A stretch of 22,790 nucleotides of DNA from a virus (IMGVR_UViG_3300006565_000043:1-22790), one strand, 5' to 3'. Positions 6,204 through 22,790 are shown, counted from the stretch's first letter. Made by a program: numbers and translations. Notes: generated from the letters alone by a model not told the origin.

Positions 6204-6337
6204 ATCTGATTAAAAGGATAATGTTTTAATTTTTCTTCAACCGTTCTAAAATCAAAAGGTAAAAAGAATTTAATCAATTTTCCAGATCCAAATGGGTCTA
6301 AAATAAATTTAACTGGAGGATTAATAGTATTCCTCAC
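6200..6337 (-). CDS. Small basic protein, 45 aa, GTG start, overlapped at both ends
   Basis: This small gene was found by reading the otherwise unexplained 130 nt between the DUF4815-type gene and the 68-aa gene. It starts with GTG at 6335-6337, which overlaps the TGA of the large gene (GTGA). It ends with TGA at 6200-6202, which overlaps the ATG of the 68-aa gene (ATGA). An in-frame TAG lies five codons upstream, so no longer start exists. The product reads MRNTINPPVKFILDPFGSGK, then a hydrophobic LIKFFLPFDF, then RTVEEKLKHYPFNQI. It is basic, with many Phe and Pro residues. The two 4-nt overlaps are strong evidence for a real, coupled gene, because random frames rarely fit both junctions exactly. 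I recognise no family. Confidence 0.75.
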   Translation of the reverse strand: MRNTINPPVKFILDPFGSGKLIKFFLPFDFRTVEEKLKHYPFNQI

Positions 6338-9300
6338 GCTAAAGCAATTGCTCTAAAGTCTTTCAATCTGACTGGAACAGATTCATTAGTAGAAGTCATT
6401 ACTATCTTAATATTAAATCCACTGAATTGTTCCAAATCATTTACCGTAAATTGATATTCTGAGAAACCATCTATATTATTAGATTCAACTTTAGCATCTG
6501 CTCTACCATCATTCTTAGAAGAATCTATAATCTCATCACCAAAACCATCACCATCCAAATCAATTAAATTCGTATATCCTGGGAATGGTCTGTATGATTG
6601 AGAAACCTCTGTAGAATCTGCACTATACAATCTATAGAATACTCTTATATCTGCTTCTGATCTAACATTAGCAGCAACTAACACTCTAATTGAAGTTGCT
6701 GGTTGTGCCAAATTAACTCTCTTAGATATAAACATAGATCCATGAGGATCATCAAGTACAGCATTTGTTCTACTATCTGTATCATAATTATCAACACCGA
6801 TAGGATTATTGATCTTATTTCTACCCAATTCAAACATAGCATTCTTAATATCCAATACAGGAGATAAATTCTTATCTGTTGAAGTCATATCAACTTTCAA
6901 AGTAACTGATTTATGCTTAGGAAGATTTGTCAATCTTTCTGATTCATTTGTCTTAGAACAACATAATCTTGGAGTTGGGAAGAATGTAGTCTCATTTAAT
7001 ATAGTTGGTTCAAATCCTTGATCAATAAAGGATATTTCATTTCCACCAGCACTTGTACCACTAACAGTTCTTATTGATGCAGAAGCACGAGTTCCATTTC
7101 CAGGTGTAATTACATTAAATTTAGGTGATAAAGAACTAAACTGGTGATTTTGAGATACTTTTACGGAATTTCCACCAACTCCTTTTTCATCAGTAAAACA
7201 TAACATAGTTTTACCTGATGATCTTGAACTTGTACCTCTATCAATTTCTAAGAAATAATTGTCAATATTTGAAGCATTTCTTAATGTTGTATTAGATGGT
7301 AAATTTATTGTGCTATTAATTCCGACTAATGGGAATCCATTTATTTGATAAGGTTGAATAGTTGATCCTTTTGCATGAACTGAAGCAGTTGAATCCTCAA
7401 GACCTCTGGAAGATAGTGCTAATTTATTCTGATGATCCAATACATATTCGACAATTTCTTGACCAATAAGTGCTTGACCTCTATCAGTAACAATACCAGC
7501 AAACTGTACAAAACATGAAGTATCAGCAACAGATACTGATGTTGAAGATTCAGTTATTTCTAAAGAAGTTTGAGTTAAAATAGAATCTGGTTTAATATTT
7601 TGTATCTTAACAACATTATTAATCCCATGATGTGCATGATTAGGTTGAGTAATTTCTAATACATTACCTGTATTAATATCACTAAGTACTTGAGAACCAT
7701 TAGAACCAATTGTAGTACCAGCAACTTCTGTTCTGGTATCATTAGATGCTCCATAATGAATTAATTGATCTCCATTTGTAAATTCTTGTCCCTGAACATC
7801 TGTTAGATACAATGTATCAAGTGCAGAATTTATTTTAGCAACAGCAAATCTTGCTCCATATCCACTGGTAACAAGAGCACTACTGTTATCAATAGTAAGA
7901 ATGTCTCCTACAACATATCCAGTACCTGATGTAATATTAGTTAAACCATTTGCATCTATAATACCATTAGTAATACTAACAGATACTGTTGCTCCAGATC
8001 CATTACCAGTTACTGCCTTAAGTGGTATTAAATTAGTATTAGTAAATGCATAGTCATTTCCTCTTGCAATAATTTCAAGTTCACTTTCGGCTGGAGATGC
8101 GTTAGTATCTAATCCAGAACCAATTCTTTCAATAATTCCAGTAACACTAGAATCTTCTGGATCTGCTATAGCACCAGTACTTACCTTTCTTCCTATAGGA
8201 AGTGTTGCAGAAGCTGCTGTTCCACTTAAGGAAACTTTAAGTTTTCTTGGATGAGTTCTAATTGGATTATTTGATAATGTTTGAGTATTTTCATTACCTG
8301 GTTCAATAGGACTATTATAGAAGGTAACAGTACCTGAAGGAACGAATGATGCCTTATAAAGTGTAAAGGTTAAATCTTGATATTGACTTGGAGTCCAAAT
8401 AGTTCCGTTTTGTGACTTAAATAAACTACCACCAATATATTGTTTCGTAACAATAGCACTCTCAACATCAGGTAAATTAGCAGTCCTAATAGTCTTCTGA
8501 CCCATTGTAGAAACCCACATCTCATATAAGTCTGAAGAAGGAGATAAGAATACAATAGCATATTCTTTACCTGCTTCCAAATAAACAGGAGATGGGAATC
8601 TAATATTTGTTGCTATAGATGCATCATCTGATACTTGAATATCATCTGGACTTAATGCAACTTGAGCATAATCTTGCACAAGGAAACTTGTTGGAGTACC
8701 TAATTCAACATCTCTAAGTTCTACAAATACTCTGGCATTAGGATCTTTACTTGCAAAATAAACATCAAATGATGTTAAGAATGCTCCACTTTCATCAACA
8801 GCAAATGACTGTGCCAAGGGATCTCTATATGGAGCTTCAACTCTCACAGTATCTGATTCTTGATTTACAGAAACTTGATGTGTTATGGAATTAGGTTTCT
8901 GTGTAGGTGCAGGTGGAACTCTAACTCCAACCGTTGATGTTGCCTGAGTTAAAATACTACCTGTTCCAGTATAAGTTCCAGATGCATCACTTGCATAAGC
9001 AGTGCTTCCTGGTAAAGTAACAGTTCCAGGAGGTGTAGCAGTTATCCTAAAGGTTTTAGTTCCAGTATAGAATAAATTATGTGGCATTGGGGACTGGTTA
9101 GCATCTCTAAAGAAAAATGTTCCTAATACATCACCCCAATTATCAGAATATAATGAAACATCAGTTACAGTAGCATTAGCACCACTTTGCTCACCTACAA
9201 TATTAGCACCATCAACAACATATCCATAGTAACTTGGACTGTTTGCCAATGCAACTATATCAATATTAAACAGTTTAGAAGTTGCTGAATATGATACAGA

Positions 9301-12300
9301 AGGTGCTGGTCTTGTTCTATCAAAAGGATCTACTGTATATTTTTCTACCTTTCTACCTGAACTAATTTCTGGTGGAAGTTCATATACGCCTCCACCTACA
9401 CCTGCTATAAGACTATCCAGAATATAAGATTGAGGAACAATCTCCCAAGATTCACCAATCTTATGTTCTGGTGCTTTAACTCTTACATATCCAATCTGTA
9501 CACCATTTTTCATAATCTTTGCATTTTCACCTATAGTGAAAGATCCAGATTGCATTTCAATTTCAATCAATTTAGGGAATATATCAGGTATTCCACTATC
9601 CAATTTATGATAATGTTTAGTAAATGCCTTTAATCCATTAGCGTTAAATCCAACGTTTCTGGATCTCATAAATGGATCCGTTGCACCACTAATCTTAATA
9701 CTTTCAACATAATCAAATTCTTTAGAAGGTCCTTCTAATGTATTAGTGAAACTTGTTTCAATAGTCCTTGTAGTGGTTGTAGTTTTAGTAGTTGTGGTAT
9801 CAACATGATTTCCTATCCAATCTCTACTATCATCAGGTTCAACCTCGACAGAAGTTACATCAACATCAGTTTTAGATGCAGTTGTATCAGACTCAACATT
9901 AGATGATTCTACCCATGTTGCCCCAGTAGATTCTTTTCTCCAATTATCAACATAGATTGTTCTTATCCAGTTATCTGATGCTGGATCAAGTATTATACCA
10001 CCAACATAAACAATAACATTAAATGGATTAATATTTTCAACATTTGATGCTTGAGTATTTTTAATCCAATCAACTTCACTATATGCTAAAGTTAATAAAT
10101 CACCTGTTTTTTGGCAATTTTCATCTAATAGTTTATAATTCGCTGAAGTATCTACTATTCTTTCATCAAGACTTGGCATAAGTGCCAATTCAGCAGGAAT
10201 TGACCACATATCAACTGCACTAATCAATTCTTTATTAACTACATCAACATCACATCTAGAACCATCTTCAGTTCTCTTTCCAGTAGCATTAAAATCTATA
10301 AAACTTCTATCTTTAAAATCATTTACTACAAACCCACTCTTAAATCTATCAATACCATCAGCATCTGTAACTTGTAATGATTTTGTATCAAGTTCAAGTG
10401 CTGTAAGAGAAGTCATAATCTCAAGATTATCAATTCTTTTTTCAAGTTTACCAATATCTCTCATGGTAAATCTTCTATTATCAAATAATTTAATATTAGG
10501 ATCAGTAATAGGATTATAAAGATAAGGTGGAAGACTTATCTGAGCTACCTCCATAGAATCACCAATTTCTGTTGGTGGTGCTGGTTTGTCAGCAGAAACT
10601 CCTTTAATAAGTTTAACTTGTTCAAATTTATTAATAACAAGTTTATCAATTCTTGGAAGATAATAAGTATATCCCAAAATAGAACTTTCATTTGGAGTTA
10701 TTGAATATTTTGTATTCGTTTCAAATGATCTTGATTCAAACGCAAAAGGAGATCTATCTGTAGTTGTAGATGAATCAAAAGGTCTTACCCTTGGTCTAAA
10801 ATCTAATATATCAGAGGCTCTATCCCTACCTATTGCTGGTATATCCGAAGTATATCTTTCTTTAGTATATGAATTTACTGTAAATAAATCTCCATTATTT
10901 CCACTTGCTACTTTATAGTAATCAAATATTACTAATAGTCTCTTAGATGGTACAGATCCATTATTTTTTCTAACCAATCTCGAATAATCTGAATATTGTT
11001 TCTTATGTCCTTTATCAAGACTATAATTACTGGTCTTATCAATATAATTACCTGCAGTATAAGTTTGAAGAACAGATTCAATATTAGATTCTTTAAAGTT
11101 AATTGTCTCACCAACAGTAAAGGTATTTCCATTTAAATATACAAATTCTATATTTTCTCCATCAACTCTATTAACAATTTGTCCTATTGCTCTACTATCA
11201 TTTCCAACAATCTTTTCACCTACAATTGAATTTTCATTTAAACTAAGTCCAGATACAAATGTTAATTTATCAAGAGTTGGTGCTACAGTATTCTTTGATT
11301 CATAAACAGCATGAATCTTAACAACGTCAGGAACATTTAATGATATATTATCATCTTCTACTCTCAAACCATAATACTTATTCTGAACCAACCCACCATT
11401 AGTAGAAACACCAACAGTTTTTGATACTTCTAATTGAGAACTTCTTACATAATCTTTAGATTTACTAGTTAATCCAATTTTCTTTAGAGTTGTATTTAAA
11501 ATTACCGCAGTAGAATTATTTAATCCAATAAATTCAATATCATTACCATTATTTTTAACATTGACTTGATTTGAACTTAATTTTTCTATAGCACCAGTAG
11601 CATACATTAATGAATATTTTTCATCATCATAAGGTTCAAAAAATGCACTTGAAATACCAGTAGAAACATCTAATACATCAGAAGTAGATAGTTCTAATGT
11701 ACCACTTGAAGAAGTTAACTTACCAGTAACTTGTTTTGAAATAATAACATTTGAATCTGATGTATCAACAGCAGAAATATTTTTCTTAGGAAGTTTTGTA
11801 TATAATCCAGACTTATTAAGATTAATAATAGCAGGTCTTTTAATTCTAAATGTTGATGTAGTTGTTATACCTGCAGGTAAATATTGTGGTTTTCCTCCAC
11901 ATACACCTTCAACAACTTCAACTGGTTTAAGTGTCAGTTCACTCCCATCTGAACTTATAGCATCTACTATATTATAAGTATCATCACTTGCTAATCCAGT
12001 TGAAAATCCTACAATAGCACCAGTACTTATTCCAACTTTACCTGAAAATCTTCTTCTTGGGCAAGTTGCTTTAGATGTAGAAGAATCTACACCTTCAATT
12101 GTTAACTGATCAAATCCAGAAAAATTAGGTAATATTTTATCATATAATACTGCATCAGCATTAAAATTAACTGCTAATTGGTTATTTAATGTAGATGACT
12201 TTTGATGAACTGATTTTATATCATCAACAGTATACGATTTTGCTGTAATAACTGTTGATTGTGAAGATGTATTCTGTTCGTTAATTTTTAACGACTCACC

Positions 12301-13893
12301 TTGAACAAAAGTACCTGTAGTTTGGGATAAAATAAGTTCACTTGGATTATGTCCAGAAACATAACCAACCGCACCACTACTTACACCTCTAACTCTACTA
12401 TGCAAAGGTATTTGAGTTGCTATTGTTCCTGGATTTGATATTTGAAGATATGTATAAGTTTGTACATCAAATAGATATAAATCCCATACAGTAGAACTAC
12501 CAGTATATGGAGCATCTGCTAAACCAAACCAATAAACTCTAGCCTGACCTACCTTAACACCAGGACCCTGTGCAGGGTTAGAAGAAGATAATCTTCTTTC
12601 ATTATGCAATGATACAACATTTTCACCACTACCAACTGGATCTCCAATGTTTATATAAGGGAATCCATCAATATTATTAATCTTAAGTAAACTTCCCATT
12701 TGGAAACCAACTGAAGAAGATTTTATAGTTTTAGTATCTCTTGGTTTGTCAATATCTAAAACAGTTGTTCCTGGTAAATTTACATCAAAACCTCTAACAT
12801 ATGCTGTACCTGGAGATAACTTAACACACATTGTATCTTCAGAAGGATCATTACCTTCGTCAGTTTTTTCAGTATCAAGATATAATCCAGCAGAATCAAT
12901 TTCATTATTCAAAGAATTTTGAATATTTACTCTAAATGGTTTTACAGCATAATTTCCAGATTCTTCATATGTTCTTTTAGCAAAATACTTCTTAATTTCA
13001 GAATAAACTGATGTATCTTGAAGTTTCTTTATTTCACCCTTACGTATTCTTATTAATTCTACAAAATTAGTATCATTAAAATCTAAAAGAGATTTTTTGG
13101 CTAATTTAACTCTTATTCTAAATCTATCAGCACCTGGTGCAGCATAATTAGTAAATCCTTTTGCATTATCATTTAATGATGGATCATCATTAGCATTAAC
13201 AACTTCTTCAATAACATCAAAACCTACTCTATAAGAAGGTTTATTTGAATAAGGTTCAAGAACAATAAGAGACTTTTCAACATCTACAAATGTTCCTCTT
13301 ACAAAATAAACACCATTATCAACACCTACAGCAGATCCTATTGAAGTTGCATCTTCTGTTGATAATGTTAATACAGTTTCACCTGCAACCAAAGTTGTAT
13401 TTCCGTAAGTAACATTCTCCTCTAATAAAAGTATTTCAGCATTTGGAAAAGAAGTACTTTCTCCAGTTGATCCAGACTCAGTATACTTAATAAAAATAGT
13501 AATATCATCAATACCATCATTAGGTGGTAAAATATAATTCTTGATAGTTCCAACTATTTGAGAATTCTGCCCCTTTACTCTTGTACCTTTACCATTATTA
13601 TTATTAATTAAAGCATCAAGATATACTGTAATATCAATTCCAAGATGATCTGGATTTACTTTAGCTGAAAAATATGTGCTATCATACGTTACAGATCCTG
13701 GTATAACCATAGATCCTTCTTTAAAAATATGACTTCCAAAAGATTCTAATTGGTTTTGTAATATTGATTGCAGACCTGTTAATTCTCTAGCCTGAACAGG
13801 ATGTCCTGGCTTAAATAAAACCTTATAAAAATTATCTGCCTTATCAAAATCATCATAATAAGGACTTATATTTAAGTTAGTCTTTTGTGGCAT
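6334..13893 (-). CDS. Giant baseplate/tail structural protein, DUF4815-type
   Basis: This 2519-aa protein lies where T4 carries gp9 and gp10, directly after gp8 (6-nt gap). The N-terminus has SPYYDDFD...KVLFKPGHPVQARELTGLQ followed by SILQNQLESFGSHIFKEGSM, which I recognise as the DUF4815 signature of large phage tail proteins. Further along are a DPFMRSRNVGFNANGLK element (near 9650), which matches the FMR-R...GLKP motif of many baseplate or fibre proteins. Next comes DPLAQSFAVDESGAFLTSFD (near 8800), usual in the same family, then a GxGY module (7876-8020) and an Ig-like RG...HAKG module (about 7350-7560). Near the C-terminus, residues 2445-2453 read DLDGDGFGD, a likely calcium loop. It probably trimerises on the baseplate rim and may replace gp10/gp9 as fibre attachment; that is inferred from position. 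No signal peptide or enzyme motif is seen. Confidence 0.9.
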   Translation of the reverse strand: MPQKTNLNISPYYDDFDKADNFYKVLFKPGHPVQARELTGLQSILQNQLESFGSHIFKEGSMVIPGSVTYDSTYFSAKVNPDHLGIDITVYLDALINNNNGKGTRVKGQNSQIVGTIKNYILPPNDGIDDITIFIKYTESGSTGESTSFPNAEILLLEENVTYGNTTLVAGETVLTLSTEDATSIGSAVGVDNGVYFVRGTFVDVEKSLIVLEPYSNKPSYRVGFDVIEEVVNANDDPSLNDNAKGFTNYAAPGADRFRIRVKLAKKSLLDFNDTNFVELIRIRKGEIKKLQDTSVYSEIKKYFAKRTYEESGNYAVKPFRVNIQNSLNNEIDSAGLYLDTEKTDEGNDPSEDTMCVKLSPGTAYVRGFDVNLPGTTVLDIDKPRDTKTIKSSSVGFQMGSLLKINNIDGFPYINIGDPVGSGENVVSLHNERRLSSSNPAQGPGVKVGQARVYWFGLADAPYTGSSTVWDLYLFDVQTYTYLQISNPGTIATQIPLHSRVRGVSSGAVGYVSGHNPSELILSQTTGTFVQGESLKINEQNTSSQSTVITAKSYTVDDIKSVHQKSSTLNNQLAVNFNADAVLYDKILPNFSGFDQLTIEGVDSSTSKATCPRRRFSGKVGISTGAIVGFSTGLASDDTYNIVDAISSDGSELTLKPVEVVEGVCGGKPQYLPAGITTTSTFRIKRPAIINLNKSGLYTKLPKKNISAVDTSDSNVIISKQVTGKLTSSSGTLELSTSDVLDVSTGISSAFFEPYDDEKYSLMYATGAIEKLSSNQVNVKNNGNDIEFIGLNNSTAVILNTTLKKIGLTSKSKDYVRSSQLEVSKTVGVSTNGGLVQNKYYGLRVEDDNISLNVPDVVKIHAVYESKNTVAPTLDKLTFVSGLSLNENSIVGEKIVGNDSRAIGQIVNRVDGENIEFVYLNGNTFTVGETINFKESNIESVLQTYTAGNYIDKTSNYSLDKGHKKQYSDYSRLVRKNNGSVPSKRLLVIFDYYKVASGNNGDLFTVNSYTKERYTSDIPAIGRDRASDILDFRPRVRPFDSSTTTDRSPFAFESRSFETNTKYSITPNESSILGYTYYLPRIDKLVINKFEQVKLIKGVSADKPAPPTEIGDSMEVAQISLPPYLYNPITDPNIKLFDNRRFTMRDIGKLEKRIDNLEIMTSLTALELDTKSLQVTDADGIDRFKSGFVVNDFKDRSFIDFNATGKRTEDGSRCDVDVVNKELISAVDMWSIPAELALMPSLDERIVDTSANYKLLDENCQKTGDLLTLAYSEVDWIKNTQASNVENINPFNVIVYVGGIILDPASDNWIRTIYVDNWRKESTGATWVESSNVESDTTASKTDVDVTSVEVEPDDSRDWIGNHVDTTTTKTTTTTRTIETSFTNTLEGPSKEFDYVESIKISGATDPFMRSRNVGFNANGLKAFTKHYHKLDSGIPDIFPKLIEIEMQSGSFTIGENAKIMKNGVQIGYVRVKAPEHKIGESWEIVPQSYILDSLIAGVGGGVYELPPEISSGRKVEKYTVDPFDRTRPAPSVSYSATSKLFNIDIVALANSPSYYGYVVDGANIVGEQSGANATVTDVSLYSDNWGDVLGTFFFRDANQSPMPHNLFYTGTKTFRITATPPGTVTLPGSTAYASDASGTYTGTGSILTQATSTVGVRVPPAPTQKPNSITHQVSVNQESDTVRVEAPYRDPLAQSFAVDESGAFLTSFDVYFASKDPNARVFVELRDVELGTPTSFLVQDYAQVALSPDDIQVSDDASIATNIRFPSPVYLEAGKEYAIVFLSPSSDLYEMWVSTMGQKTIRTANLPDVESAIVTKQYIGGSLFKSQNGTIWTPSQYQDLTFTLYKASFVPSGTVTFYNSPIEPGNENTQTLSNNPIRTHPRKLKVSLSGTAASATLPIGRKVSTGAIADPEDSSVTGIIERIGSGLDTNASPAESELEIIARGNDYAFTNTNLIPLKAVTGNGSGATVSVSITNGIIDANGLTNITSGTGYVVGDILTIDNSSALVTSGYGARFAVAKINSALDTLYLTDVQGQEFTNGDQLIHYGASNDTRTEVAGTTIGSNGSQVLSDINTGNVLEITQPNHAHHGINNVVKIQNIKPDSILTQTSLEITESSTSVSVADTSCFVQFAGIVTDRGQALIGQEIVEYVLDHQNKLALSSRGLEDSTASVHAKGSTIQPYQINGFPLVGINSTINLPSNTTLRNASNIDNYFLEIDRGTSSRSSGKTMLCFTDEKGVGGNSVKVSQNHQFSSLSPKFNVITPGNGTRASASIRTVSGTSAGGNEISFIDQGFEPTILNETTFFPTPRLCCSKTNESERLTNLPKHKSVTLKVDMTSTDKNLSPVLDIKNAMFELGRNKINNPIGVDNYDTDSRTNAVLDDPHGSMFISKRVNLAQPATSIRVLVAANVRSEADIRVFYRLYSADSTEVSQSYRPFPGYTNLIDLDGDGFGDEIIDSSKNDGRADAKVESNNIDGFSEYQFTVNDLEQFSGFNIKIVMTSTNESVPVRLKDFRAIALA

Positions 13894-15513: not shown

Positions 15514-18500
15514 TTATGGAAGTCCAAAGACTCTCAATGATCCAGTAGATCTTAATCCCTTCAAGGATGTATCCTTGAAGTTCCTTCTTTGAACAGTTGG
15601 GAACGTTGTTAATCCAGAATTAACTGTAAATCCAGTAATTCCTATTGAAACTGGAGTAGTACCCCTAACACCATTATATAGTCTACCCCAAGATAACCTA
15701 CCTAATGATGTTGTTAATCCAGTGTTAGATGGATTATGGAATCCAGTTGTTGATATTCCACCAATATTTGATCCATTCTTAACATTACATACAATTTCAC
15801 CATTTTCTCCTGAAGAAGTAATCGAATGTACTATGTAAATATTATCCAAGAATGTTGTACCAACACTAACTATAGAATCATTATGAGTATTAACTGAGGT
15901 TACACCATGTCCAACTTTAGTGTCTGTTATGAATACTGGATATCCATCATTACCACTCTCTGGAGGTTTTAATGAATTAGCAGTTTTATCTGCTCTAAAG
16001 AAGAATCTAAGTGCAGTTAAATGTCCACCTATTCCATTTGACGTTGTAATACCAGTAATAACTCCAGTATATCCTTCAACATTTTCAATAGTGTTAATCC
16101 TTTCAATTAGATTTTGTGGTTGTTGTACAATAACGTGTGGTGGAGTAGTAAAGGTATATCCTAAACCTATATTTTCAATTGAAACTGCTGATACAGAACC
16201 ATTAGTAATAGTTGCTTTAGCAAATGCTGTTGTTCCAACACCTACTCCAACTGATTGTGGAGCAGCAAAGTTAATATGAATAGGACCAGCAGTATAACCA
16301 GATCCTACATTAGTTGTAGTTACTGATTGTATTGTTCCTGCAGCAGAAACTACAGCAGTAAATGCAGCACTAACTAAACTTGTATCACCTTCAACTATTA
16401 AAGCATCAACGGCATTGATACCAATTCCATATCTATCACCAGAATCTAATGCTGGATTATCTGTATCTTCATAATAGAATGCTTCTGCATCATCAACAAA
16501 TATTCCACCAACACCACCAATACCTGAAGATGTTGTTAGATCTCCAATAATTTTAGCAGTTGGATAAATTTGTGCTTCAATATTTGATCTTGCCTTACTA
16601 ATTACTTCACCTTGAATAACCTTATCAACTTTCTGTTTAGTCCATTGTATTGGTTTTTCTTGATCTTCAGTAATACCAACACCAACATAAGTATCAGTCT
16701 CAACTATATCAGAACCTAAGAAAGATTTAATAATCCTATTCCTTTCCTGATCTACAGTATCTGTAAAATCAGAATGCTTAAGGAGTCTAAGATCATCACC
16801 AACTTTTACTGATTCTTGAACATCAACAATTTCAATATCAACTCCTCTTTGTCCAACATAGAAGAAAATATCAACTTTATCACTTGGTGAAGGTGGTCGA
16901 GTAAACAATACTGTTGTTCCACCAGTAAATTGATACGCAATTTTAGGTGTTTGTATTACACCATTTACAAATACTATAAGAACAGCGTCAAGATCAATTT
17001 CTGATGATAATGCATCATTATTATCTTTCTCGAAACTAATTAATTGTCCATTTAAGAATAATGGGAATCTTCTTCTAGAACCATTCTGTAATAACTTAAT
17101 ATCATCAATAAAATCTATTTCACCAAACTGCCAAGCAGAGAAGTAATCATTATATGTCTGTACCACTTCTAATTGGAAGTCATCCAATGGTCTTTGTAAG
17201 TTTGCAGCAGTTACAAGACCAACTGGTTTAAACTTATCACCAACATTGAATGAATGTCCATCCCTTGTTACTTTAAAGTCGTATATACCAAATCCAGTAG
17301 CACCAATTCCAGTAGTAGTTTGAGCAGCACTAACACTAGCACTAACTAACATATTCTGTCCAGTTTCTGTAGTATTACCAATACCCAATCTTGAAACACC
17401 AACAACAGGAAGATTCTGATAAACTGGATCTGGAGTTACAATTAGAGGATTGACATAATTACCACCAACTTCATTAATATTAATATCTAAAGCACCACCT
17501 GTTCCTGCAGGTGATTTACCAACATTTACTCTAAACCACTTAGCACCAACTCTTCCAACAGGTAATTCAACTCTATGAGCAGGATCTGCTTCACCAGAAG
17601 TACCAACTCTAACAGTAATTGTATTTGTAGTTACTGATCTAATTGGTATTGTTGTATTATTATATACAGGATCTGTTACACGAGGATATGGATGAATAGT
17701 TGCATAATTATCTCTCTCACAAGTTAATTTTATACCACCAGTAGCAATACCAACTGTATTGGATGTATTTAATCCATGACCATTAATAGTTAATACTAAA
17801 TCACCTGTTGTACCATCATAAGTTGCATTAGTAGGAGTTTTTGGTGATCCACCAGTTACAGTAACTGAATTAGCGTCAGCAGAAGAGAATGAATGTGCAA
17901 ATCCAACACGAGGATATGCGTGATCAGTAGTATGAGCATCTTTAGCACAAGACATTACTAATGATCCAGTAGCAATACCAACTGTTTGATTTGATTTTTG
18001 AATACATCCATTTACAGTTTTACCTGCTACAAATGTATGATCAAACTTCTGATATGATGGATTTGGATTAACATTAACTTTAAATGTATTTACAGTCTTA
18101 TTTGTAATTTCTAACCACTTACCACTAGCATAATCTGTAGGTCTTGGATATGAATGCTCTGTAGCACCACCATCCTTTGTACAAGTAAATGTAAGACCAT
18201 TATCATCAATTAAAATCTTATCACCAACATTAAATCCGTGAGAATTTTTTGTGAGAGTTAAAACACCAGTATTCTTGTTATAGGCAGCATTTGTTGGTGT
18301 AATTGTAGAACATCCAACAAAACCATGTGAAGTACTTTCTACCTGAAGCCATCCAGTTGCAGGATCATAATTTGAATCAGTAATATTACGAGTTACTATT
18401 GGTGATTTACCAACAAAAACACTAAATGAAGTATTAGATATTTTTGTAATCGCAAGATTACCAGTATTAAGATCTGAATTATTAACAGATGCAGGGTCTG

Positions 18501-21500
18501 TAGGACGAGGATAAGTATGTTCTGTTAAATGTTTGTCTCTATCACAAGTAAAAGTTATTGAATTATCAGTAATTCTAATAACATCACCTGTACTCATTCC
18601 ATGATTTGATGCAAATGACAGTACTAGAATACCAGTTACTGCATTATAAGTTGCTCCATTTGGTGTCTTTTGATTACCATTCTCTGCTCCACTCTGAACA
18701 CTAACTGCATTAGTATTTTCAGATCCAGCAACAAATATATGTTCATAATTACCACCAGTAAATGCAGCACCTACTGTAGCACTAACAAACTTATGCTTAT
18801 TATCTGCAGCTTTAGCACTAACAACTGCACCAGTTCCACCTCCACCACCAGAACCAACATTAACAACAATTGCTTCTGAATTTACTTCTTCTACACCTAA
18901 ACTTTGTCCAGATGCTGGATCAGTAGTACGTGGATATAAATGTGTTCCTCTATGATTATCTCTAGAACAAGTAAATCCTAAAGAATTATTTGCAATCTGA
19001 ACAGTATTACGTGCTCTTGAAAGACCACTTGCTGTTGCTGATTCAAATGCATGGACATATTCACCACCAGATATCACTGCACCTGCAGAAGCAGATACAA
19101 AGGTATGTTTAGTTGTATTTGTTGATGGTATTGTTGTTAGAACCTGTAGTGTAATAGATGTATCAGTTACAGATTGAATCTTAATTGCAGTATTATGTAA
19201 AGGATCACCTGATCTTGGATATGTCTTAGTAGTTGCGTTATTATCAACATCACAAGTAAATCCAAGTGAATTAGCAACAAGTTTAATACTTGATCCTGCT
19301 TTCAAACTATGAGCACCAATTTCCAATTCCATTAAACCTGTTGTAGGATCATAATCAGCACCTGTTGGTGTAAAAACTGCTTTAGGTGAAGTTCCTACAT
19401 TAACTCTAAATGTATTAGTAGTTTTATTTGAAATTGCTAACCACTTATTGCTAACTGGATCTGAAGATCTTGGATATGAATGCTCTGAAGAATTACCATC
19501 CATTGCACACTTAAATGTCAATGAATTATCTGCAAATTTAACAAAATTTCCATTACTAAATCCATGACTAGGAATAGTAACAGTCATTATACCAACACGA
19601 GCATCATATTCAGCACCAGTTACTGTATGATTAGTTGCTGCTTGTAGTGAATGACTACCTACAGTCAAACTTAATCTACCTGTAGAAGAAGTATAATTTG
19701 ATGCAGTTGGAGTTAATTGTGATCCTGTATTAGGAGTAATAGAATTATTAGTAGAACTTACAAATTTATGATCATATTCAATATCACTAACACCAATAGC
19801 AACAGTTCCATAGTATCCACTACCAAAGGTTAAGTCGTTGAAGAATTCCCAAGCATTGCCACCAGTCTTGTAATTATGTGGTATGGTACAAATACCAGCA
19901 TCAACCTCAAAGGTTCTTTCTGATATTATTCCAACTAAATGAAGTGGACGTTCATGATCTTGGAAGAATGTTGTAGTTACACCAGCGTGTGGAGCAGCAC
20001 AAGTAAATTCCAAATCCCTCAATTTAACCATAGAAGGGGTTTCTAAGGAGAATCCATGAACTCCAGTAGTTGTAACTGTAATAATTCCAGTTATATGATC
20101 ATAAACTGCAGTTTGAATACCTATTCTAGAATTGGCAGGTACTTTAGCAAGAGAACCTATAGAAGTACCAATCCCAACAAGAGATGTTAAAGATCCTTCA
20201 GCGTTGATCTTAGGTTTAACTTCAGCACCAATAAGAGGAGCATATCCTAAACCAGGTGTAGAACCAAGAGATACAATCAGACCACCTCTAGGCAATTGAT
20301 TCTGGTTAATATCAAAGTCGGATTTAATATAGTCTCCATTAACAGAAGATATACCTGTAAATACAACGCTTGAAATACCTGCAGTTGTATCATTTTCAAA
20401 TTCATAATTATTACCTGTATTATTAACAGTTCTTGGTGTTTGGAATACTCCATTGATGAATAAAACACCATTACCAATTCCAACTCCAGTACTAGTATTT
20501 GCTCCACCTACAGTTAGACTATATGTTCTACCAATACCTGTGAAATTATCTGATATATCATCAAACAACATATTAGTCGTATAATCACTTCTTAAGAAAG
20601 TTCTACCACTAAATTTTGCTCTTACAAAAGGTAAATTATCATCTGCTCTTCTTGATCTAGTATTTCCTTTAGGAGGATCTAAGAAATAAACTGTACTATC
20701 AACAATGTTAAATGATCCTCTATGCACCCTTACTGCCGCATTATCACTATGTGGAGTTGCACCTATACCTAAAGATCCTCTCTGTACCCTTACAACGGGC
20801 AGTGTAGCAATTCCAAGAGCAACTGCTGTAGAATCGTTAATAAAACCATTTTGAACGCTTGCAAATCCAACCTGGTCAACTTTCATATACTCATTATCAA
20901 TCTTCAATACATCTCTAGGTTGTACTGAACTAATACCACTTAATACAAACTGAGTAACTCCGATACCAATAGCACCATCCAAATTGTGTTGAATTGATGT
21001 GTATGTAATTGGTTGCTGTACTATTCCATCTAAACCAATAACAGTTTTTGATAATTTTTTGGTTAAATTAAACTTATGAGCGTTTCCAGATCCAGTTCCA
21101 GTAAATGTTACTGGAAGTGCATCAGTGAGGGTCAGAAAACCAACTCTACTGAATAACTGGAACTGTCTCTCATTTATTACTTTAGTGAATACTTTACTTG
21201 GTAAAATTGTAGTTACAATACCTGCACTATTTGTAGTAGATGCTATAGAAACTGCAGTTGCAGCTAATCCTATAATTGTTGATCCTGGTGTATATTCTAA
21301 CTCCTCACCATTATTATAAAAATGATTCTCAATTGTGAATATTCCAGTTGTAGTACTAAGAATACCTGTATTTGTAGGATTAAATGTCTTAGTATAAATT
21401 GGAGTATTCTCGTGAGTTAAAGTAAAGTCTGTCTTATTTGCTCTATTTCCATTAAGTCCATCATATGCTGATAAGAATATTCTCTTCTCAGATTCACCAA

Positions 21501-22790
21501 ACCTATAAACAGGTGGAGTATTGTCAAAATCGTTTGTGGTATAAAGAACTTGATTGAATGATTGTACTTCAGTTACTGATGAAGCATACTCTGAATCTGG
21601 ATAGAATTTAATGTTTATATTACTACCACTTATTTCTCCACCAAATGTACCAATACCTGTTGTTGATCCAGCAGAAACGAATGGATATTGAACAGTCAAA
21701 ACATCATCAATATCTCTCATTCCAATTAATTGATGAATAGCAGAAGTTTCACCACAAGATACCCTAACAAGAGACTTAATACTACTATCCAAATCTTTAT
21801 TTAAAGTTGAGAAAGTATATGCACCAGTACCAGATGAATAATCAGAGTGGAATCTAGCAGTTCTTTCTGAACCAGGTGATTGACCAGCAACTGCAAATCT
21901 ATGAGTTCCTATACCTGTGGTTGTAGTTCCTAGTCCAACAACATTTGCACTAACAGTAAGAGTACGTTCTTGATCATTTAAACATTGCAATCTAATTCTA
22001 TTGTCTTCAAATACTGCAGTAACTAAACCAACTTTAGTTGTAGTGGATGAATTTTGTCTAGTATCAATAAATGTCTCAGCAATATAAGTATCAACACCAT
22101 CAAAATCAACAATTACTTCACTATAATTTACATCTTTAGTGAAGTCATTTTGTATAATAAGACTTGCGTGTAATCCATTAAAATCAGTCTTAGGATATTC
22201 AACAATAGTAGTTGTTGTAAATCCTACAGTCGTACTACCAACACCAACAATTGTGGATGATAACTCAACTTGTCCAATTTCATTTGTAGATGCAGCAGAA
22301 ACCTGATCAGTTCTAAAATCAGTCTTTAATATTTTAAGATCATGATCTTTATTGAATACTTCAGTTGGATAGAAGTTTATTGATTTTGATCCAGAATTTG
22401 TGTCTACTTCTGCTGTAAAATCACCTAACTTCATTGTTGTAAAATCAGTTGATTTTTCAAGTAAATATGCGTTATCAGTATCAGTTAGAACAACTAATTC
22501 AGAAACCTGAGTATCAAAGGTATCTGGATCTATTATTTGTACAACATAATGTGAAAATGCACTATCTAATTCCTCTAATTCAGTAGTAGATGCTTGGAAT
22601 CCTTTACTTGAGAATTTAGCACTTATATCATCATGAATAAGAACTCTATTACTCTTACACTTAGTAAAGTCAGTTAATTGCTTGTTAGATACTTGTATAA
22701 ATTTAGATTGAGTTTTTCTTGTATCAAAATCAATACCAAGATCAAAAACATTAATGGCATCAACTCTCTTAGGATCTCCAAGAATATCTA
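15514..22790 (-). CDS. Giant baseplate-type protein in gp7 position (N-terminus beyond window)
   Basis: The reading frame has no stop from 15514 to the window edge: at least 2425 codons, about 2424 residues. The ATG at 22434 is internal, since about 118 residues upstream of it are protein-like (for example KSNRVLIHDDISAKFSSKGF). The true start is upstream of the window. The protein precedes gp8, the place of wedge initiator gp7 (1032 aa in T4), but I see no direct residue match to T4 gp7, so this is a positional assignment. It is rich in Gly-Ile-Gly-Thr strings. It has two FxNGVxQTP hairpin motifs (about 20430-20463 and 16942-16974) and a DVLKIDNEYMKVDQV...VRVQRGSLG module (about 20700-20980). 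It also has a GLGYAPLIGAEVKPKI segment (about 20215-20270), the seven-copy C-D-H-YPR repeat, and a GxGY pair (about 16114-16330). It ends LRSTGSLRVFGLP. It likely forms the outer wedge scaffold and carries surface domains. Confidence 0.88.
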   Translation of the reverse strand, partial: DILGDPKRVDAINVFDLGIDFDTRKTQSKFIQVSNKQLTDFTKCKSNRVLIHDDISAKFSSKGFQASTTELEELDSAFSHYVVQIIDPDTFDTQVSELVVLTDTDNAYLLEKSTDFTTMKLGDFTAEVDTNSGSKSINFYPTEVFNKDHDLKILKTDFRTDQVSAASTNEIGQVELSSTIVGVGSTTVGFTTTTIVEYPKTDFNGLHASLIIQNDFTKDVNYSEVIVDFDGVDTYIAETFIDTRQNSSTTTKVGLVTAVFEDNRIRLQCLNDQERTLTVSANVVGLGTTTTGIGTHRFAVAGQSPGSERTARFHSDYSSGTGAYTFSTLNKDLDSSIKSLVRVSCGETSAIHQLIGMRDIDDVLTVQYPFVSAGSTTGIGTFGGEISGSNINIKFYPDSEYASSVTEVQSFNQVLYTTNDFDNTPPVYRFGESEKRIFLSAYDGLNGNRANKTDFTLTHENTPIYTKTFNPTNTGILSTTTGIFTIENHFYNNGEELEYTPGSTIIGLAATAVSIASTTNSAGIVTTILPSKVFTKVINERQFQLFSRVGFLTLTDALPVTFTGTGSGNAHKFNLTKKLSKTVIGLDGIVQQPITYTSIQHNLDGAIGIGVTQFVLSGISSVQPRDVLKIDNEYMKVDQVGFASVQNGFINDSTAVALGIATLPVVRVQRGSLGIGATPHSDNAAVRVHRGSFNIVDSTVYFLDPPKGNTRSRRADDNLPFVRAKFSGRTFLRSDYTTNMLFDDISDNFTGIGRTYSLTVGGANTSTGVGIGNGVLFINGVFQTPRTVNNTGNNYEFENDTTAGISSVVFTGISSVNGDYIKSDFDINQNQLPRGGLIVSLGSTPGLGYAPLIGAEVKPKINAEGSLTSLVGIGTSIGSLAKVPANSRIGIQTAVYDHITGIITVTTTGVHGFSLETPSMVKLRDLEFTCAAPHAGVTTTFFQDHERPLHLVGIISERTFEVDAGICTIPHNYKTGGNAWEFFNDLTFGSGYYGTVAIGVSDIEYDHKFVSSTNNSITPNTGSQLTPTASNYTSSTGRLSLTVGSHSLQAATNHTVTGAEYDARVGIMTVTIPSHGFSNGNFVKFADNSLTFKCAMDGNSSEHSYPRSSDPVSNKWLAISNKTTNTFRVNVGTSPKAVFTPTGADYDPTTGLMELEIGAHSLKAGSSIKLVANSLGFTCDVDNNATTKTYPRSGDPLHNTAIKIQSVTDTSITLQVLTTIPSTNTTKHTFVSASAGAVISGGEYVHAFESATASGLSRARNTVQIANNSLGFTCSRDNHRGTHLYPRTTDPASGQSLGVEEVNSEAIVVNVGSGGGGGTGAVVSAKAADNKHKFVSATVGAAFTGGNYEHIFVAGSENTNAVSVQSGAENGNQKTPNGATYNAVTGILVLSFASNHGMSTGDVIRITDNSITFTCDRDKHLTEHTYPRPTDPASVNNSDLNTGNLAITKISNTSFSVFVGKSPIVTRNITDSNYDPATGWLQVESTSHGFVGCSTITPTNAAYNKNTGVLTLTKNSHGFNVGDKILIDDNGLTFTCTKDGGATEHSYPRPTDYASGKWLEITNKTVNTFKVNVNPNPSYQKFDHTFVAGKTVNGCIQKSNQTVGIATGSLVMSCAKDAHTTDHAYPRVGFAHSFSSADANSVTVTGGSPKTPTNATYDGTTGDLVLTINGHGLNTSNTVGIATGGIKLTCERDNYATIHPYPRVTDPVYNNTTIPIRSVTTNTITVRVGTSGEADPAHRVELPVGRVGAKWFRVNVGKSPAGTGGALDININEVGGNYVNPLIVTPDPVYQNLPVVGVSRLGIGNTTETGQNMLVSASVSAAQTTTGIGATGFGIYDFKVTRDGHSFNVGDKFKPVGLVTAANLQRPLDDFQLEVVQTYNDYFSAWQFGEIDFIDDIKLLQNGSRRRFPLFLNGQLISFEKDNNDALSSEIDLDAVLIVFVNGVIQTPKIAYQFTGGTTVLFTRPPSPSDKVDIFFYVGQRGVDIEIVDVQESVKVGDDLRLLKHSDFTDTVDQERNRIIKSFLGSDIVETDTYVGVGITEDQEKPIQWTKQKVDKVIQGEVISKARSNIEAQIYPTAKIIGDLTTSSGIGGVGGIFVDDAEAFYYEDTDNPALDSGDRYGIGINAVDALIVEGDTSLVSAAFTAVVSAAGTIQSVTTTNVGSGYTAGPIHINFAAPQSVGVGVGTTAFAKATITNGSVSAVSIENIGLGYTFTTPPHVIVQQPQNLIERINTIENVEGYTGVITGITTSNGIGGHLTALRFFFRADKTANSLKPPESGNDGYPVFITDTKVGHGVTSVNTHNDSIVSVGTTFLDNIYIVHSITSSGENGEIVCNVKNGSNIGGISTTGFHNPSNTGLTTSLGRLSWGRLYNGVRGTTPVSIGITGFTVNSGLTTFPTVQRRNFKDTSLKGLRSTGSLRVFGLP
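17593..19605 (-). repeat. Seven-copy C-xx-D-x5-H-x-YPR protein repeat array
   Basis: Within the giant gp7-position protein, a 16-residue core recurs seven times without gaps: [FLM]-[TSK]-C-x2-D-x5-H-x-Y-P-R. The cores lie at 19468-19515, 19213-19260, 18928-18975, 18505-18552, 18142-18189, 17908-17955 and 17680-17727. Cys, Asp, Tyr, Pro and Arg are present in all seven and His in six (Lys in the second copy). Most copies have an upstream half of type YDxxTGxLxLxxxxHGxxxGDxIxIxDN and a downstream half ending in TxNTFxVNVGxSP, so a full unit is about 75-95 residues. Units are spaced 85, 95, 141, 121, 78 and 76 residues apart; the longer gaps hold H-F/YVSA-type inserts. A degenerate eighth unit (EFTCAAPHAG) is near 20000-20015. 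Confidence 0.9.

Follow-up and report, generated by a model that had tools for sequence, protein, structure and literature searches.

The closest described relatives of the protein analyzed here are the giant gp7-annotated proteins of the Kyanoviridae, represented by T4-GC107 of Prochlorococcus phage P-SSM2, which has 5,195 amino acids and is annotated as gp7 or baseplate wedge initiator. In those gp7 annotations the repeat discussed below is not defined as a domain, and our search of annotations and literature found no description of the unit or of its cysteine, nor, among the matches listed, of nested domain insertion. Other phage tail systems offer functional background: the endosialidase beta-barrel contains a polysialic acid binding site and is a hotspot of host discrimination (PMC12632334), the tail of Agrobacterium phage Milano holds an extensive disulfide network (PMC10811340), and iron binding by phage tails is an idea under discussion for marine phages (PMC11705849).

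The window, that is, the whole stretch of 22,790 nucleotides of viral DNA analyzed here (IMGVR_UViG_3300006565_000043:1-22790), encodes the counterpart of T4-GC107, 5'-truncated at the end of the contig. The gene order follows that of P-SSM2 (gp6-gp7-gp8), with the repeat protein directly upstream of gp8, and 85% of the region aligns to gp7-gp8 of P-SSM2 at 69.5% DNA identity, while the genes of the window share about 69% DNA identity with P-SSM2 and with Marine virus AG-345-E02 (Salacisavirus). The profile phrog_2885 (baseplate wedge subunit) matches the 2,424-residue frame, and both the similarity along the protein and the position upstream of gp8 place it in the P-SSM2-type gp7 (T4-GC107) family. 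This synteny upholds the earlier assignment of the giant protein to the baseplate region; the name gp7 follows annotation and gene order, and a location in the baseplate itself would follow from gene order. Searches with the whole protein returned only sub-threshold DUF4183 and FlgT_C matches in Pfam and no sequence match in the PDB. Two genes downstream of the repeat protein, a second giant frame of 2,519 amino acids (T4-GC109, window 6334-13893) contains DUF4815 according to the annotation of a relative. Additionally, in phage S-SSM7 two adjacent genes are both annotated as gp7 baseplate wedge initiator, and the repeats lie in the second one.

The preliminary description had reported seven cores of 16 residues with invariant Cys, Asp, and YPR, and His in six of them. 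The pattern F/M/L-x-C-x2-D-x7-Y-P-R indeed occurs seven times on the minus strand, always over exactly 16 residues, with C, D, and YPR invariant, His in six of the seven cores and Lys in copy 2; shuffling the protein 2,000 times never produced it, and each of the seven YPR tripeptides of the frame falls inside a core. The repeated unit, however, covers about 81 amino acids rather than 16, copies 3 and 6 are each divided into separate parts, and a degenerate eighth unit lies upstream. A unit profile (HMM) built from the copies in the window gave the following map, in which the array including its half-units spans 17509-19713:

15514-22788, minus strand: C-terminal 2,424 amino acids of the giant virion protein (open frame; truncated at its 5' end where the contig stops)
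19954-20118, minus strand: degenerate upstream unit, "copy 0", YDHITG..HGF..EFTC, without YPR (unit HMM)
19636-19713, minus strand: N-terminal fragment of split unit 3, profile positions 2-27 (HMM)
19384-19629, minus strand: unit 1, whole, profile positions 1-82 (HMM, iE 2e-37)
19132-19374, minus strand: unit 2, whole, profile positions 1-81, with Lys for His (HMM)
18850-19017, minus strand: C-terminal part of split unit 3, profile positions 25-80 (HMM and orthologue alignment)
18400-18666, minus strand: unit 4, whole, profile positions 2-82 (HMM)
18313-18384, minus strand: N-terminal fragment of split unit 6, profile positions 3-26 (HMM, weak alone)
18061-18300, minus strand: unit 5, whole, lying within the beta2-beta3 loop of unit 6 (HMM and AlphaFold2 model)
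17902-18018, minus strand: middle part of split unit 6, profile positions 18-56 (HMM)
17596-17838, minus strand: unit 7, whole, nested in unit 6 just after YPR (HMM)
17509-17589, minus strand: C-terminal tail of split unit 6, profile positions 56-82, ADPAHRVELPVGRVGAKWFRVNVGKSP (HMM, weak alone)
19468-19515, 19213-19260, 18928-18975, and 18505-18552, minus strand: cores 1-4 (motif)
18142-18189, 17908-17955, and 17680-17727, minus strand: cores 5-7 (motif)

Copy 0 matched the profile with an iE of 2e-10, which became 0.009 with the Cys column masked. The short fragment at 18313-18384 had an iE of 0.058 (4e-4 in another profile search) and is retained in orthologues, and the tail at 17509-17589, with an iE of 0.061, matches the contiguous unit-6 tail of the relative L028. 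Most orthologues also retain the Lys of unit 2. The C-terminal part of unit 3 is followed by a conserved linker, GSGGGGGTG (window 18805-18860), which does not vary in any of the 18 orthologues, a constancy that would be unusual if it served only as a flexible linker. In unit 6 (17902-18018), Cys replaces the usual His22, giving two Cys in one unit, and the extra Cys is found at the same position in most relatives.

The consensus of the unit reads T-P-T-x-A-x-Y-x2-x-T-G ... H-G-L-x2-G-D-x-V-x-I ... L-T-F-T-C-x2-D-x5-H/K-x-Y-P-R-x-T-D-P ... V-x-V-G. The repeat was found in 292 of 50,697 phage records, all of them bearing the name of Synechococcus, Prochlorococcus, a cyanophage, or an unassigned marine virus, and in at least 583 stretches of viral contigs. 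Nine matches in cellular genomes came from one Prochlorococcus single-cell assembly and from marine metagenome-assembled genome (MAG) contigs, and probably represent phage DNA. The single-cell assembly (AG-418-C09, QCLS01000003.1) is represented by a contig of 189,106 bases with two repeat proteins, which from its size and content may be a cyanophage genome, and the Red Sea "Euryarchaeota" MAG contigs carrying the repeat (L077, L083, and L084; PBPH01000042.1 and others), one of whose proteins has about 29 units, are probably mis-binned phage DNA. Copy number counted with the profile in long frames ranged from 1 to about 29 per protein, in agreement with the earlier expectation that it varies between relatives.

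Across 442 non-redundant units, Cys41 was conserved in nearly 100%, Pro53 in 99%, Tyr52 in 97%, and Arg54, Asp57, and Asp44 in about 94% each, whereas residue 50 was His in 71% and Lys in 23%; part of the patterns used for scanning demanded Cys or HxYPR in the unit that they matched, and the other units of the same proteins were free of that selection. When the profile was masked at the Cys column, Cys was still found in 437 of 439 units, one of the two exceptions being a misalignment and the other a Ser accompanied by Glu at residue 50. Thus, of the strict retention of Cys and His proposed at the outset, the Cys part stood, while the free replacement of His, named beforehand as refuting, was what the Lys in 23% of the units revealed. 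Cys is also present in short-loop units that have no D44 and in units with I, L, or E at residue 50.

An AlphaFold2 model of one unit (unit 5, with 72 alignment rows) predicted seven strands with a pLDDT of 94.9 and a pTM of 0.81, and in a multi-unit model the modules were connected by linkers with pLDDT below 50. The nearest, though weak, fold matches in the PDB were the endosialidase barrel (Z 5.6-5.8), the phage FCWL1 head-tail protein (5.5), and the E1 FCCH domain (5.0-5.4), with about 60 of 81 residues aligned; the endosialidase alignment had an rmsd of 2.2-2.4 over 61 residues, and Z values below 6 may only reflect a common small barrel. Among predicted viral structures, the sole matches below E 0.001 were cyanophage proteins. 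All Pfam matches of the unit were below cut-off (PF12195 at best 17.8 bits against 35; PF16190 12.7-13.4 against 29.5), and these weak matches (End_beta_barrel in 11 and E1_FCCH in 5 of 72 units) were confined to residues ~12-38. In the comparison of the unit profile with PDB sequences, TALE Hax3 and iota-carbonic anhydrase were rejected as chance-like sums with no single significant stretch.

The unit is best read, from model and fold matches, as an all-beta barrel of about 81 amino acids nearest in fold to the endosialidase beta-barrel and E1 FCCH, with an extra hairpin (strands 37-40 and 49-52) predicted to carry C41, D44, H/K50, and Y52-P53-R54; the roughly 20 unaligned residues would fit such an additional element. 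D44 co-occurs with H/K50 (Fisher 4e-12) and R54 with D57 (2e-11), values uncorrected for kinship, and the couplings link core position 15 to residues 37, 39, and 52, with 38/40 and 49/51 paired on the opposite face. The conserved polar residues may mainly stabilize the module, D44 with the basic residue 50 in a pattern as a salt bridge would give and R54 with D57, while L37, F39, and Y52 would face the barrel. Because the couplings place these three on the barrel side, Cys41 should also lie on the barrel-facing side of the hairpin.

Many repeat units lie within other units. In the window, the N-terminal fragment at 19636-19713 lies upstream of whole units 1 and 2 and is complementary to the part at 18850-19017, so copies 1 and 2 interrupt copy 3. 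Copies 5 and 7 interrupt copy 6, whose N-half at 18313-18384 is followed first by unit 5, then by its own middle part, by unit 7, and by its tail. This explains why copies 3 and 6 looked odd. Complementary fragments bracketed whole units 206 times in 118 proteins, against 62 +/- 6.5 in shuffled arrangements (maximum of 83 in 1,000 shuffles), and after an N-half and one or more whole units a C or M part came next in 132 of 165 cases. Insert lengths clustered at ~98-107 amino acids for one unit, ~210 for two, and ~309 for three, and three insertion sites were in use, near residues 20-27, 44, and 55. Moreover, filled and empty sites coexist among close relatives: the window, L007, L008, and L010 have unit 7 together with its linkers, and the site of this unit is empty, with unit 6 contiguous, in P-SSM2, AG-345-E02, L028, L035, L023, L051, and L031. 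Copy 4 of P-SSM2 contains an in-frame insert of 218 amino acids, whereas that of AG-345-E02 is intact with flanks 92% identical; the insert itself has a unit within the hairpin loop of another unit, and nearly identical inserts occur in L107 and L109. Arrays would have grown largely by cassettes of a unit plus linker (~100-107 amino acids), one to three at once, entering an existing unit at one of three loops (around residues 20-27, within the hairpin at about 44, or immediately behind YPR at about 55), and it is this entry into loops that would produce units nested within units.

A plain tandem array, in which each half-unit is a degenerate copy in its own right and a recent duplication links copies 1 and 5, would account for the abundance of partial units and for the closeness of copies 1 and 5, which are the most similar pair (62% in the core and 52% over 79 amino acids) and share an identical run of 20 bases. 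That likeness, pointed out in the preliminary description, is real, but a 20-base run is likewise common to copies 6 and 7, and the recent duplication drawn from it is rejected by a tree of 79 units, built on 61 columns only and with some forks open, in which copies 1 and 5 are not sisters. They belong to different, older clades, each copy of the window grouping with the same-position copies of other phages (the clade of copy 5 includes P-SSM2), so the 20-base match would reflect conserved residues or a small conversion. The tandem reading also draws on the halves themselves: swapped partners scored almost equally (median of 83.2 against 84.5 bits, 90 of 160 better, p 0.016), for which reason the sequences do not strongly prove co-folding partners, and the match of joined halves to intact units in 215 of 215 cases is uninformative. 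Nevertheless, complementary pairs surround whole units far more often than in shuffled arrangements and sites are filled or empty among relatives, which renders a plain tandem array quite improbable; under the nesting that these observations reveal, the split halves probably co-fold into one barrel.

The function of the conserved residues invites further alternatives. If Cys, Asp, and His of each unit bound a metal such as iron or zinc, either inside one chain or across a presumed trimer, this would suit the near-constant Cys, the ~94% of units with Asp, the occasional Cys at His22, a classic ligand swap, and the discussion of tail iron binding in marine phages (PMC11705849). But the ligand residues are not all retained across homologues: 23% of units have Lys at residue 50, Cys stays in short-loop units devoid of D44 and in units carrying I, L, or E at residue 50, D44 elsewhere pairs with His/Lys, and His22 is associated neither with D44 (Fisher p 0.83) nor with H50 (0.34). 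These patterns, together with the couplings and the D44-H/K50 and R54-D57 pairing, favor ordinary structural roles, and the metal site suggested earlier appears very improbable. Ordinary packing does not readily explain a Cys kept in 437 of 439 units, the one invariant residue that the structural roles leave unaccounted for. A reactive or crosslinking thiol, forming interchain or neighbor disulfides in oxidizing seawater and hardening the baseplate, would agree with the almost unfailing presence of one Cys in each unit, with the scarcity of Cys elsewhere (15 in 2,424 amino acids), with its presence in single-unit proteins (S-RIM2, S-RIM8, S-RIM50, ACG-2014b, and Syn33), and with the precedent of phage Milano (PMC10811340), yet the Cys is predicted on the barrel-facing side of the hairpin and no partner Cys was identified, so we judge this role unlikely. 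Disulfides between units of one chain were rejected as a general role because single-unit proteins keep the Cys. Somewhat less doubtful, although still no favored option, is that the modules are carbohydrate-binding domains for the cyanobacterial surface, by analogy with the endosialidase beta-barrel and polysialic acid; that barrel is the best structural match and units occur in proteins annotated as tail fiber or short tail fiber, but the fold similarity is weak and says nothing on function, and a structural role explains most of the conserved residues better.

Altogether, we consider it reasonably probable that nested barrel modules form a modular, lengthening arm or platform of baseplate and tail proteins. 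In the giant baseplate and tail proteins of cyanobacterial myoviruses, the modules would build beaded stretches that add length, most likely giving the rim of the baseplate an adjustable arm or platform for spacing and perhaps for weak attachment to the host surface, with adhesion to surface glycans as a possibility suggested by analogy. Within this account, the fold and the nesting are the firmer parts, and the putative arm or adhesion function is the weaker one. That the units represent a self-inserting barrel family with three tolerant loops and up to about four nesting levels, lengthening and diversifying cyanophage baseplate proteins and carrying a functional near-invariant Cys in each unit, is proposed tentatively, with slightly more doubt than confidence. 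The repeat scores below every Pfam cut-off although it is among the commonest unnamed domains in the structural proteins of marine viruses, and tandem-repeat counts of such giant proteins are wrong. Knowledge of the unit, its boundaries, and its nesting makes thousands of giant proteins labeled "hypothetical" or "structural" readable, and the empty and filled sites in close relatives offer a natural example of domain growth by self-insertion.

Compared with known systems, phage Milano (PMC10811340) provides a precedent for functional Cys in a contractile tail, but its proteins are unrelated to the repeat, and the disulfides demonstrated in Milano are hypothetical for the units described here. 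The E1 FCCH domain (PF16190; UBA1 and UBA6) is a similar small barrel with a weak match over the HG-x2-GD stretch, differing in its eukaryotic enzyme context and in having no YPR hairpin. The endosialidase beta-barrel (PF12195; PDB 3ju4, 1v0e, and 4hiz) is the closest solved fold, but no propeller or sialidase surrounds the unit, and the C-D-H/K-YPR hairpin is outside the sequence match. Finally, the gp7-annotated giants of the Kyanoviridae, including T4-GC107 of P-SSM2, are the same protein as that of the window by position and sequence; the PHROG profiles 2885, 5342, 701, 1276, and 18802 already include the repeats, and P-SSM2 carries copies orthologous to those of the window.
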